IMG/VR virus record: IMGVR_UViG_3300030389_002065
Location: 1,017-36,444 of that record
DNA length: 35,428 bases
Reading direction: 5' to 3' (one strand)
Origin: a virus
This document shows positions 14,049 through 18,459 of this stretch, piece by piece. Under the pieces are notes generated by a model. The model had not been told where the DNA came from. It searched no databases and saw only the letters and a program-made list of their open reading frames with translations. Position 1 is the first letter of the stretch. Each line of letters begins with the position of its first letter. Made by a program: the position numbers and the translations under genes.

Positions 14049-14227
14049 CTGCCCATCATTATTACAGAATAGCCACCCATTTTAGGGGTTTCAGTTTCTT
14101 CAGGGGTAGATTTTGCATCATGGGGCGTAGAAAACCCAGCATCCTGCATAGCCTTAACTTGCTTCTTAGACTTTTCGCACATTGAGTAGTAATCAATAGA
14201 ACGAAACTCAACTGTATGATCTTCCAT
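14045..14227 (-). CDS. Small hypothetical protein
   Basis: 60 residues, beginning MEDHTVEFRSIDYYSMCEKS and ending MGGYSVIMMGR. It overlaps the end of the methyltransferase gene (14208-14227) and the start of the small terminase candidate, so it is part of the same tightly packed operon. No motif recognised. Confidence 0.6.
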   Translation of the reverse strand: MEDHTVEFRSIDYYSMCEKSKKQVKAMQDAGFSTPHDAKSTPEETETPKMGGYSVIMMGR

Positions 14228-15095
14228 CTTCAGCCTCTTTTATCAAAGTATTACCAATTATCTCAGGTATTTGCGGAACTACAGCATTTCCTAAGCATTT
14301 AAGTCTGTGTGACCGCTTGGGAATCCCATTAGCCACTCTACCCACGTTGGGTTCAATCTCCCAGATTCCCCCTTGAACTCCACCGAGTCCGGTAATGAGT
14401 TGGTTTCTGGGTTTCTGCCGGTCTTTGCCATTGTTTCCGGCCTTCTTGCCCCCTTGTAATCCCTTGCTGCTGGGGTCGGAAATATTCGTGGAGTATGCCT
14501 CACCTCGTCTACCAATGTAATTGTCGATTGCCCCGTTTTCCTGCAATGCTCGTAAAACTCTTTGCTTTTCGGCCCCTGACTGCCATTCGCACTCGCTGGG
14601 GTACGCCACAATCCAGACCCTATCTCTGTGGTGGTAGGCGCCAACTGCGGAAGCTGGTATACAGTGCCACTCCGCATCATACCCGATCTGGGAAATGTCC
14701 CACAAAACTCGCTTAAACCAATTTCCCCCGTCTCCATTAAGCAAGTTTGTGACGTTTTCAAAGATGGCATATCGGGGTCGAAGCTCCCCAAGTAGACGGG
14801 CGCACTCTGACCAGAGGCCACTGCGTTCTGCATCAATTCCTTTTTGGTTTCCTGCAACGGAAATATCTTGGCAGGGGAATCCCCCTGTGATGACATCAAC
14901 TCCAATTCCGTCTGAAATAAGTCTATCTGCTGTAATGCATCTAACATCGTCATATACAGGAATACCAGGCCAATTCTTTTTTAAAACAGACTGAGCATAC
15001 GGGTCAATCTCACAAAAGGCTACTGTTTCAAAGCCAGCTTTCTCCAAACCCAGAGAAAAACCACCTATTCCAGCAAACAGATCTAGTACCCGCAT
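14208..15095 (-). CDS. C5 cytosine DNA methyltransferase (Dcm type)
   Basis: 295 residues with the ordered C5 methyltransferase motifs: I, DLFAGIGGFSLGLE (residues 5-18); IV, GGFPCQDIS with the catalytic Cys 75; VI, ENV (113-115); VIII, HRDRVWIV (156-163); and IX/X, RLKCLGNAVVPQ (264-275). It should methylate cytosine in a short DNA site, probably protecting the phage genome from restriction; the target-recognition part lies around residues 170-250. It is the first gene of the minus-strand block. A second long frame runs inside it on the same strand (14291-14953). No good ribosome binding site is seen before 15095. Confidence 0.92.
   Translation of the reverse strand: MRVLDLFAGIGGFSLGLEKAGFETVAFCEIDPYAQSVLKKNWPGIPVYDDVRCITADRLISDGIGVDVITGGFPCQDISVAGNQKGIDAERSGLWSECARLLGELRPRYAIFENVTNLLNGDGGNWFKRVLWDISQIGYDAEWHCIPASAVGAYHHRDRVWIVAYPSECEWQSGAEKQRVLRALQENGAIDNYIGRRGEAYSTNISDPSSKGLQGGKKAGNNGKDRQKPRNQLITGLGGVQGGIWEIEPNVGRVANGIPKRSHRLKCLGNAVVPQIPEIIGNTLIKEAEDGRSYS
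14291..14896 (-). CDS. Overprinted ORF inside the methyltransferase gene (WVEWLMGFP family)
   Basis: A frame of about 200 residues in a shifted frame on the same strand as the methyltransferase; I choose the ATG at 14896 (MSSQGDSPAKIFPLQETK), though the frame is open to an ATG at 14953. It has its own recurring family signatures: CGTFPRSGMMRSGTVYQLP, WRTP then FPTPAARDYKGARRPE, and a C-terminal LNPTWVEWLMGFPSG. I recall phage proteins with these signatures being annotated separately. Its FPTPxARDxKG block falls in the variable target region of the methyltransferase, so it is not just an echo of methylase motifs. Function unknown. Confidence 0.5.
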   Translation of the reverse strand: MSSQGDSPAKIFPLQETKKELMQNAVASGQSAPVYLGSFDPDMPSLKTSQTCLMETGEIGLSEFCGTFPRSGMMRSGTVYQLPQLAPTTTEIGSGLWRTPASANGSQGPKSKEFYEHCRKTGQSTITLVDEVRHTPRIFPTPAARDYKGARRPETMAKTGRNPETNSLPDSVEFKGESGRLNPTWVEWLMGFPSGHTDLNA

Positions 15096-15131
15096 AAAAA
15101 ACAGTACTCATTAAGCCCTCCGACCCCCCCT

Positions 15132-15159
15132 ATCCTATATTAATCCTAGACGAGTACAA
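15132..15159 (-). promoter_or_regulatory. Candidate late promoter for the methyltransferase operon
   Basis: On the minus strand TTGTAC (15159-15154) and TAGGAT (15137-15132) are separated by 16 bases, giving a sigma70-like promoter about 35-40 bases before the methyltransferase start. The match is moderate and untested. Confidence 0.35.
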
Positions 15160-15249
15160 CCCCTTTCTCTCGTGTAACTAATTCTAATATGGAATATCGG
15201 GGCAATACGTTGGGGTTAAACGGTTCTAAGGGTTCAAATTTACCCTTTT

Positions 15250-15745
15250 TTGTGTCTGGGTGGCAACTACTTACCTGCGCGGCGCGCAGACCCCCTCCCG
15301 GGGGTCTCGAAGCGCCGTGAGAGCGCGGCTTGCCGCTGCTTTTGTGGTCTTAGCGGGATTAGAGAGGCGTGGGACGCGCCGAGCTAAACATCCCGCAGAG
15401 CGACTTGTCGCGGCATAGACCCGGATCTCTCCGCTAGGGCTGGATCTGTACGACAGAGTGCGAGTGTCCCGACAGCACCCCCAACGAAATCATTTCACCA
15501 AGCCGGTCGTTGCAGCGAGTCCACGACCTCCTTCAAGAAGTGCCATACACCGTGTCTCCATTTAGAGATAGATGGGTACACGTCGTAGCCTGACATCCGT
15601 AACGAATCCACAGTCTGCGCCTGCTCGCAAGGGCGCGAGAATAACGGTTTCCACGCGATAACCCCCTCGCGCGGACCCTCCGCGATTCACGCTCAACTTC
15701 CCCCTTGCAATCAGTCCCAGCCAGTGGAGTTCTACTCCTGTCGGC
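15250..15745. other. GC-rich, hairpin-dense non-coding region (possible structured RNA)
   Basis: No convincing gene is seen from 15096 to 15779. The 15270-15720 part is clearly more GC-rich than the rest of the window. Perfect stems include AGACCCCC/GGGGGTCT (15288-15295 with 15300-15307, loop TCCC), GCGGGAT/ATCCCGC (15353-15359 with 15390-15396, with an inner GGCG/CGCC stem), GCGAC/GTCGC (15400-15404 with 15407-15411), GGTCGT/ACGACC around 15504-15527, CTCGC/GCGAG (15624-15628 with 15635-15639) and GGAGT/ACTCC (15726-15738). It lies between divergent transcription units. It may be a structured RNA, a long leader, or a regulatory or origin region. Confidence 0.5.
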
Positions 15746-15779
15746 AACGACACCCATCAATCACTAAACGGAGGCCACC

Positions 15780-16067
15780 ATGGCACTCAAACTTGAAGAA
15801 GGACGCGGAATCGCTTTCGCAAAAACCAGCAAGGCAGGCAACGAGTATTTCGAGGGCGAGGTACTCATCGACGGCAACCGCCACAAGATCATCTTCGGTG
15901 TTTCAGTACACAAAGAAGGTCCAAATGTTGGCGAGCCTAAGCTCACCAAAAATGGTAAGCGCCAGGCTTGGGTCAGCTGTGAAGAGGCTAAGGCCGCAGA
16001 GCTGGCAAGGCTGCAGGCTCGCATCGAGCATCTGCAAAACATACCTGAAGCTGAGCGTTCTCAGTAA
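15780..16067 (+). CDS. Small early protein, unknown function
   Basis: 95 residues, first gene of the plus-strand early block, with a strong ribosome binding site (ACGGAGGCCACC before ATG). The N-terminal 60 residues look beta-rich (GRGIAFAKTSKAGNEYFEGE, then VLIDGNRHKIIFGVSVHKE), the rest helical (EEAKAAELARLQARIEHLQN). Followed by a strong terminator, so it may be an abundantly expressed single-gene transcript. The N-terminal fold could be a small nucleic-acid-binding barrel, but no family is recognised. Confidence 0.8.
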   Translation: MALKLEEGRGIAFAKTSKAGNEYFEGEVLIDGNRHKIIFGVSVHKEGPNVGEPKLTKNGKRQAWVSCEEAKAAELARLQARIEHLQNIPEAERSQ

Positions 16068-17622: not shown

Positions 17623-18459
17623 ATGAGCAAGCGATTCGACAAAATCATCAACCTAATGGATAGCGCCATGGAGTCGGAAGATTCCTGGCGCAAAACATGG
17701 AAGGCAAATCCAAGGCTGCACTGTAATCTTGTGACAAAGCACGTTTACACGGGGACAAACCAGCTGACCACCATGATTTCTGCATGGCAAAATGGTTACA
17801 AAAGTTCGTACTGGCTAACTGCAAAGCAGATCATCAACCTTGGTGGTAGTTTTAAAGGACAAACTGCGACCCCTGCTATTTATTACGGCAGTGGTAAAGA
17901 CAGAGATGATCCCGAAAAACAATACAAGTTTATGAGGGTCTACAATCTTTTTAACTTGGAGCAAACAGGAATCACAATTCCGGAGCCAGAGCTGCGAACC
18001 AGCAAGTTAGAAAATCCTTATGAGATGGGTGAGGCTTTACAGCTGACTACTTCAGAATCTCCAGACCATAATCCTTCTTATTCACCGCTGACAGATACCA
18101 TCAAAATCTGTCCGCCTGGGCAATTTGATTCTGATGACGAGCATCAATCGGCTTATTACCATGAGTGCGGCCATGCGACAGGTCATAACAAACGACTAGA
18201 TCGCGACCTCACTGGCAAGTTTGGTGACGAGGACTATGCGAAAGAGGAGTTTGTTGCGGAACTTTGCGCGGTGTTTTTGTGCGCGGAGCTTGGCGTAACT
18301 TATGACCTAAAGAATCATGCGAGTTATCTGAGGTCCTGGCAGAAGGCAATCAAGTCTGACCCCAAGTATCTATTCACTGCTGCGACTGATGCGAAAAATG
18401 CTTTTGAGTATTGCATGTCGCAGTTCCAACTCATGCGTAAGTATGATAAGGTTGCATAA
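17623..18459 (+). CDS. ArdC-like antirestriction protein with zinc peptidase domain
   Basis: 278 residues. The N-terminal half (about 1-120) corresponds to the ArdC ssDNA-binding domain, with MISAWQNGYKSSYWLTAKQI and GGSFKGQTATP. The C-terminal half has a zincin motif HECGH (His 180, Glu 181, His 184) followed by YAKEEFVAELCAVFL, where a Glu supplies the third ligand as in the family. ArdC proteins protect incoming DNA against restriction and come from conjugative plasmids and phages. It begins two bases after the DUF3085-like gene. Whether the peptidase is needed for protection is not settled to my knowledge. Confidence 0.88.
   Translation: MSKRFDKIINLMDSAMESEDSWRKTWKANPRLHCNLVTKHVYTGTNQLTTMISAWQNGYKSSYWLTAKQIINLGGSFKGQTATPAIYYGSGKDRDDPEKQYKFMRVYNLFNLEQTGITIPEPELRTSKLENPYEMGEALQLTTSESPDHNPSYSPLTDTIKICPPGQFDSDDEHQSAYYHECGHATGHNKRLDRDLTGKFGDEDYAKEEFVAELCAVFLCAELGVTYDLKNHASYLRSWQKAIKSDPKYLFTAATDAKNAFEYCMSQFQLMRKYDKVA

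Follow-up and report, generated by a model that had tools for sequence, protein, structure and literature searches.

A phage cytosine-5 DNA methyltransferase gene carries a second selected gene in its +1 frame, very probably encoding the other half of the enzyme

A single stretch of phage DNA read in two frames very probably encodes the two polypeptides of one cytosine-5 DNA methyltransferase. The window, by which we mean the whole stretch of 35,428 nucleotides analysed, covers nearly all of a virus record of 36,444 bases that includes genes for portal, terminase and tail proteins, and the two genes, alpha and beta, are nested within it (Table 1). The second frame is a real gene, and both frames are under selection. 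In the mechanism that we propose, alpha would fold into a catalytic domain (motifs I-VIII) followed by a disordered stretch and motif X, beta would be made from an internal +1-frame ATG and provide the variable target-recognition domain (TRD) and motif IX, and the two chains would come together as a single functional enzyme for the methylation of phage DNA, most likely as a protection against host restriction. We infer the translation of beta, the assembly, the activity, the specificity and the anti-restriction role.

Table 1. Positions of the nested methyltransferase genes and their parts in the window
Feature	Position	Strand	Remarks
alpha, cytosine-5 DNA methyltransferase catalytic subunit, 295 aa	14208..15095	-	motifs I-VIII and X, without IX
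alpha motif I, FAGIGG	15060..15077	-	alpha only, upstream of the overlap; from sequence; 4-fold synonymous difference 0.62-0.67
alpha motif IV, GGFPCQ	14868..14885	-	+1 frame reads ..GDSPAK..; from sequence
alpha motif X, GNAVVP	14274..14291	-	resumes exactly at the beta stop; hhalign match, synonymous differences back to 0.57-0.67
beta, overprinted +1-frame gene, 220 aa	14291..14953	-	ATG start, TAG stop; putative TRD and motif IX subunit
candidate beta start ATG	14951..14953	-	over alpha Tyr48; first start following the upstream +1 stop; probable; predicted beta N-terminus MTMLDALQ
beta N-terminal part over alpha motifs III-VIII	14618..14953	-	reduced synonymous differences; substitutions moved to alpha codon position 1
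beta variable region, [FW]xTPxAxDxK modules	14363..14608	-	putative TRD; alpha frame here an unconstrained tether
beta motif IX, LNPTWVEWLMGFPSGHTD	14303..14356	-	WLMGFP invariant in 68 sequences

Alpha matched phrog_363 at 3.6e-79 and PF00145 at 1.2e-52, the latter over only positions 1-196 of the 324 of the profile. When the alpha profile was aligned by hhalign to a canonical reference of 20 single-chain enzymes drawn from bacterial genomes, columns 1-169 (motifs I-VIII) were matched at 1.2e-42 and columns 296-327 (motif X) at 1.1e-3, and the columns of the TRD and motif IX were skipped. No motif IX was found in alpha with either PF00145 or the canonical alignment. The preliminary description had credited this methyltransferase with all expected motifs, which has to be corrected: alpha lacks motif IX, beta contains it, and alpha falls outside the one-chain (monomeric) C5-methyltransferases, in which motifs I-X occur together. 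The structure model of alpha matched M.HhaI (Foldseek, 2.5e-16), with a mean pLDDT above 80 and mostly above 90 at residues 1-165, about 90 around motif X, and dropping to below 50 at residues 189-221 and 229-259. The fold of the catalytic domain is the same in the monomeric enzymes M.HhaI and M.HaeIII, which differ in carrying the TRD and motif IX within the same chain.

The second frame had been described as open for about 220 codons, which agrees with the length of beta from ATG to TAG. The shared coding was checked in both frames and is as described: GGATTCCCCTGCCAA is translated to GFPCQ in one frame and to (G)DSPAK in the other, and VGRVANGIPKR shares its DNA with WVEWLMGFPSG. For comparison, 51 viral loci with mutual identity below 85% were gathered by the alpha protein alone, the second frame playing no part in the choice, and codons were shuffled synonymously within each gene, which leaves protein and codon usage unchanged. 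The +1 frame of alpha in the window was open in none of 2000 shuffles, which contained 6.6 stops on average. It was open in 51/51 non-redundant homologues versus 0.09 expected from the shuffles, well outside what chance would give. This count is to be read in the light of the common ancestry of these loci, which are not 51 independent trials, but at the distances sampled neutral synonymous sites are near saturation. Stops scattered across the second frame, named in advance as evidence against a real gene, were not seen in any of the 51 homologues. The +2 frame of the same homologues contained 8-17 stops, close to the shuffle prediction.

Purifying selection in both frames, tested on these homologues, was visible as a suppression of synonymous change inside beta. 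Compared with the near-saturated neutral level (4-fold difference of about 0.65), the 4-fold synonymous difference of alpha was 0.62-0.68 up to residue 50. It was 0.04-0.52 across residues 51-170, reached 0.00-0.01 over the WVEWLMGFP stretch (alpha residues 251-260) and returned to neutral values past the beta stop, a TAG that sits just before alpha GNAVVP. The positions of the substitutions followed the same boundaries: alpha codon position 3 took 75-84% of substitutions in the alpha-only parts, 56% over motifs III-VIII and 20% in the motif IX stretch, where 52% were at position 1, the wobble position of beta. The open frame, the suppression bounded by the beta ORF and the displacement of substitutions to the beta wobble bear out the earlier suggestion of a real overprinted partner.

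A shadow ORF, in which the second frame is open and conserved merely through the amino acids and codon usage of alpha, has next to no probability on these data. Over motifs IV-VIII, shuffled nested genes still scored a median of 40.6 bits with the beta HMM (83.3 bits for the real ones), so the view that methylase codons explain all second-frame conservation holds partly for these motifs and fails elsewhere. Shuffles almost never reproduced openness over the whole overlap, canonical enzymes lack such a signal, and in the TRD it is beta that is constrained and alpha that is not. The shadow-ORF reading was rejected on the basis of the shuffles, the canonical controls and the position-specific substitution tests.

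The probable start of beta is preserved by codon choice. Tyr48 of alpha is spelled TAT, as the beta ATG requires, in 50/51 homologues, compared to 18/56 Tyr codons in alpha-only parts (Fisher p 5e-14), and in the clade of the window synonymous suppression starts at alpha residue 51. Among relatives at a greater distance, the constraint sets in further downstream and the start site of beta is variable. No clear Shine-Dalgarno sequence was seen at the beta ATG. These observations bear on the alternative that beta has no start of its own and that a programmed +1 frameshift in alpha yields an alpha-beta fusion with motifs I-VIII, the TRD and IX. The constancy of the +1 relation and the single-chain fused relatives in actinophages would suit such a frameshift; however, the internal ATG is kept by codon choice, the suppression begins there, well upstream of the TRD, the frame of alpha itself stays open to motif X, and M.EcoHK31I consists of two polypeptides (PMC3404938). 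We regard the frameshift as very unlikely and an independent start of beta as the preferred reading.

The variable region of beta was examined by local DNA alignment of its modules. Every local module match keeps the codon phase of the beta frame, and 64% of the substitutions are at the third position of beta. For the viral modules, the ratio of observed to expected amino-acid change was 0.44 when the DNA is read as beta and 1.07 when it is read as alpha; for the bacterial set it was 0.54 and 1.03, respectively. A test on the alpha-based alignment had given 0.85 versus 0.99; misaligned modules had blurred this result, and the DNA-local alignment replaces it. The alpha frame over the TRD was nevertheless free of stops in 44/44 loci, versus 0.8 expected from beta-synonymous shuffles. 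The variable region is therefore conserved in the beta frame only and merely kept open in the alpha frame. Since alpha is open but unconserved there, translation has to cross this part to reach motif X, and the low pLDDT of the alpha model at residues 189-221 and 229-259 agrees with this. It is most likely that beta carries the TRD together with motif IX and that the read-through of alpha serves as a tether to motif X. The constrained frame can be read region by region, with alpha constrained over I-VIII and X, and beta over the TRD and IX. Among the beta relatives, modules such as SASDNRDRGNLSNPSLQRR recur in different contexts in otherwise divergent loci, which suggests module swapping. Because the variable modules differ widely among relatives, the enzyme of the window likely methylates a site other than YGGCCR.

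Beta matched phrog_1008 ('DNA methyltransferase') at 6.6e-26, as did 68/68 of its relatives (set A1), and is a member of that family by profile; the name of the family hides the overprinted second frame. None of the Pfam and NCBIfam models matched beta, and a beta profile search of the PDB returned nothing. The AlphaFold model of beta was poor (mean pLDDT 55.8) and had no Foldseek match, so its recognition-domain fold is putative. The best canonical match of beta was to columns 276-302, i.e. motif IX, but only at E 0.067 (hhalign), and in a six-frame scan a motif IX model built from the 20 canonical enzymes failed to single out beta ORFs. Because this direct alignment is weak, the identity of motif IX rests on a bridge through single-chain relatives. 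In Mycobacterium phage Catdawg (gp6/gp5), Streptomyces phage Euratis (gp33/gp34) and Gordonia phage Float294 (gp62/gp61), the second gene begins inside the first in the +1 frame, and Catdawg gp5, Euratis gp34 and Float294 gp61 each carry PTPxAxD (or PTPxxxD), a motif of the [NS]PxxxEWMMG type and GNGVxP on one chain. About 50 further viral loci have this C-terminal part fused in-frame to the catalytic part. Beta matched the fused enzymes at 2.5e-17, at their motif IX, and the fused enzymes matched the canonical ones at 5e-37 over motifs I-VIII and at 0.0029 over IX-X. The WVEWLMGFP signature of beta, LNPTWVEWLMGFP, is therefore best read as motif IX.

We also observed that fused actinophage loci (L283, L302, L314, L315, L327, L328, L355 and others) retain a +1 signature, WPxSGxxRNG..LLPTP, opposite motifs VI-VIII, at which synonymous change is lower (0.29 vs 0.47). 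This signature may be left over from a split ancestor or may belong to a second product.

Split enzymes of this kind are already known. Lee, Kam and Shaw reportedly found in 1995 that the gene of the small polypeptide of M.EcoHK31I lies inside that of the large one in another frame; if so, it resembles the window, where 14291-14953 lies inside 14208-15095 in the +1 frame and both are selected. M.EcoHK31I is a two-polypeptide C5-methyltransferase of E. coli for the site YGGCCR, with motifs I-VIII, X and a predicted TRD in the larger polypeptide and only motif IX in the smaller (PMC3404938). The large subunit of the window likewise has I-VIII and X without IX, and motif IX is on the small polypeptide. 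By this motif layout and the published description, the pair is an M.EcoHK31I-type split C5-methyltransferase and a further member of the known kind. It differs in that it belongs to a phage, with no restriction enzyme noticed beside alpha, and in that selection places the TRD in beta, whereas a predicted TRD is listed in the large subunit of M.EcoHK31I (PMC3404938). In M.AquI (CYCGRG), another naturally split C5-methyltransferase, IX-X are in the smaller subunit (PMC3404938); catalytic and recognition parts are on two chains as in the window, but there alpha holds motif X, beta ends after IX and one gene is nested in the other. In their placement of IX and X, the actinophage pairs Catdawg gp6/gp5, Euratis gp33/gp34 and Float294 gp62/gp61 are M.AquI-like.

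These comparisons also bear on whether beta is a structural half of the enzyme or a separate accessory or inhibitory protein, for example a limiter of the methylase. The N-terminal half of beta, over motifs III-VIII, has no single-chain counterpart and could have another role. Against a separate protein, alpha lacks motif IX and a constrained recognition region and would be incomplete alone, the C-terminus of beta has its homologue in the TRD-IX part of single-chain relatives, and beta without alpha was not found among the 80 best genome loci. We consider a separate protein unlikely. The earlier guess of a partner 'limiting or assisting' the methylase survives in its second half, as assistance fits a TRD and motif IX subunit, which beta looks to be.

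Proteins of the second family had been suggested to stand alone in other phages, and this suggestion found no support. No stand-alone beta occurred among 160 beta-selected loci (the best 80 per scan of genomes and of viruses), all of which carry an overlapping methylase. At 79/80 of the best genome loci, on bacterial and MAG contigs of many phyla, beta overlaps alpha in the +1 frame, and the remaining one resembles a frameshifted copy. A beta match was present in 14 of 299 sampled genomes of one phylum, and nested relatives are present in E. coli prophages. What had been known from a single enzyme of E. coli (M.EcoHK31I) occurs here in viruses and in bacteria of many phyla. Existing annotations contain traces of it, with two overlapping 'DNA cytosine methyltransferase' genes in Paenibacillus phage Bloom and a 'g49 internal gene' in phage Diva. 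A Paenibacillus locus (L212) considered as a natural alpha-beta fusion looks instead like a single frameshift within a nested pair.

In a tree of the catalytic domain, the canonical enzymes form a well-supported separate group (100/99), the nested loci are basal, and the split and fused actinophage forms fall together inside the nested loci; the root of this tree rests on 18 long-branched sequences and its bootstrap had not settled. This topology points to an old nested state, from which the split and re-fused forms arose later. The layout would be explained if a canonical gene had undergone two frameshifts compensating each other, the first ahead of the TRD and the second between motifs IX and X. 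On balance we favour an old and widespread nested design, in which the whole TRD lies in the overprinted frame, the alpha tether is kept open only for motif X, specificity changes by swaps of beta modules, and actinophages later re-joined the halves while retaining a selected +1 ORF.

Several individual loci deserve mention. Five matches with the same coordinates and scores lie at five places on one chromosome of an uncultured Roseovarius (OX638333.1, L220-L224), possibly a multiplied prophage or mobile element. One prophage region of E. coli strain PT62 (L276) holds two distinct nested methylase pairs, of which the first belongs to a more distant subgroup with motif IX spelled LNPAHSRWLMGLP. 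In E. coli strain PCP07014 (L275), the alpha of a prophage nested pair has an internal stop and is annotated as a pseudogene, and the beta frame is likewise broken in two.

To our knowledge, it is rare for the two frames of a long overlap to code for conserved parts that interlock in one enzyme. A literature search that covered few subscription papers gave no paper on how widespread the arrangement is or on selection in both frames of such methylases. The breadth, the two-frame selection evidence, the placement of the TRD in beta and the re-fused actinophage relatives look new. In many phage methylases one of the two subunits has probably escaped annotation, and as a result the annotated gene, cloned or expressed alone, would yield an inactive enzyme.

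Between alpha and the rightward genes of the window lie about 680 bases (15100-15780) with no clear gene, which by eye look largely G+C-rich with short inverted repeats; no Rfam match was found there. Further along, the ORF at 17623-18459 on the plus strand matched an anti-restriction protein family (phrog_7245, 6.4e-50) and is a possible second counter-restriction gene of the same phage.
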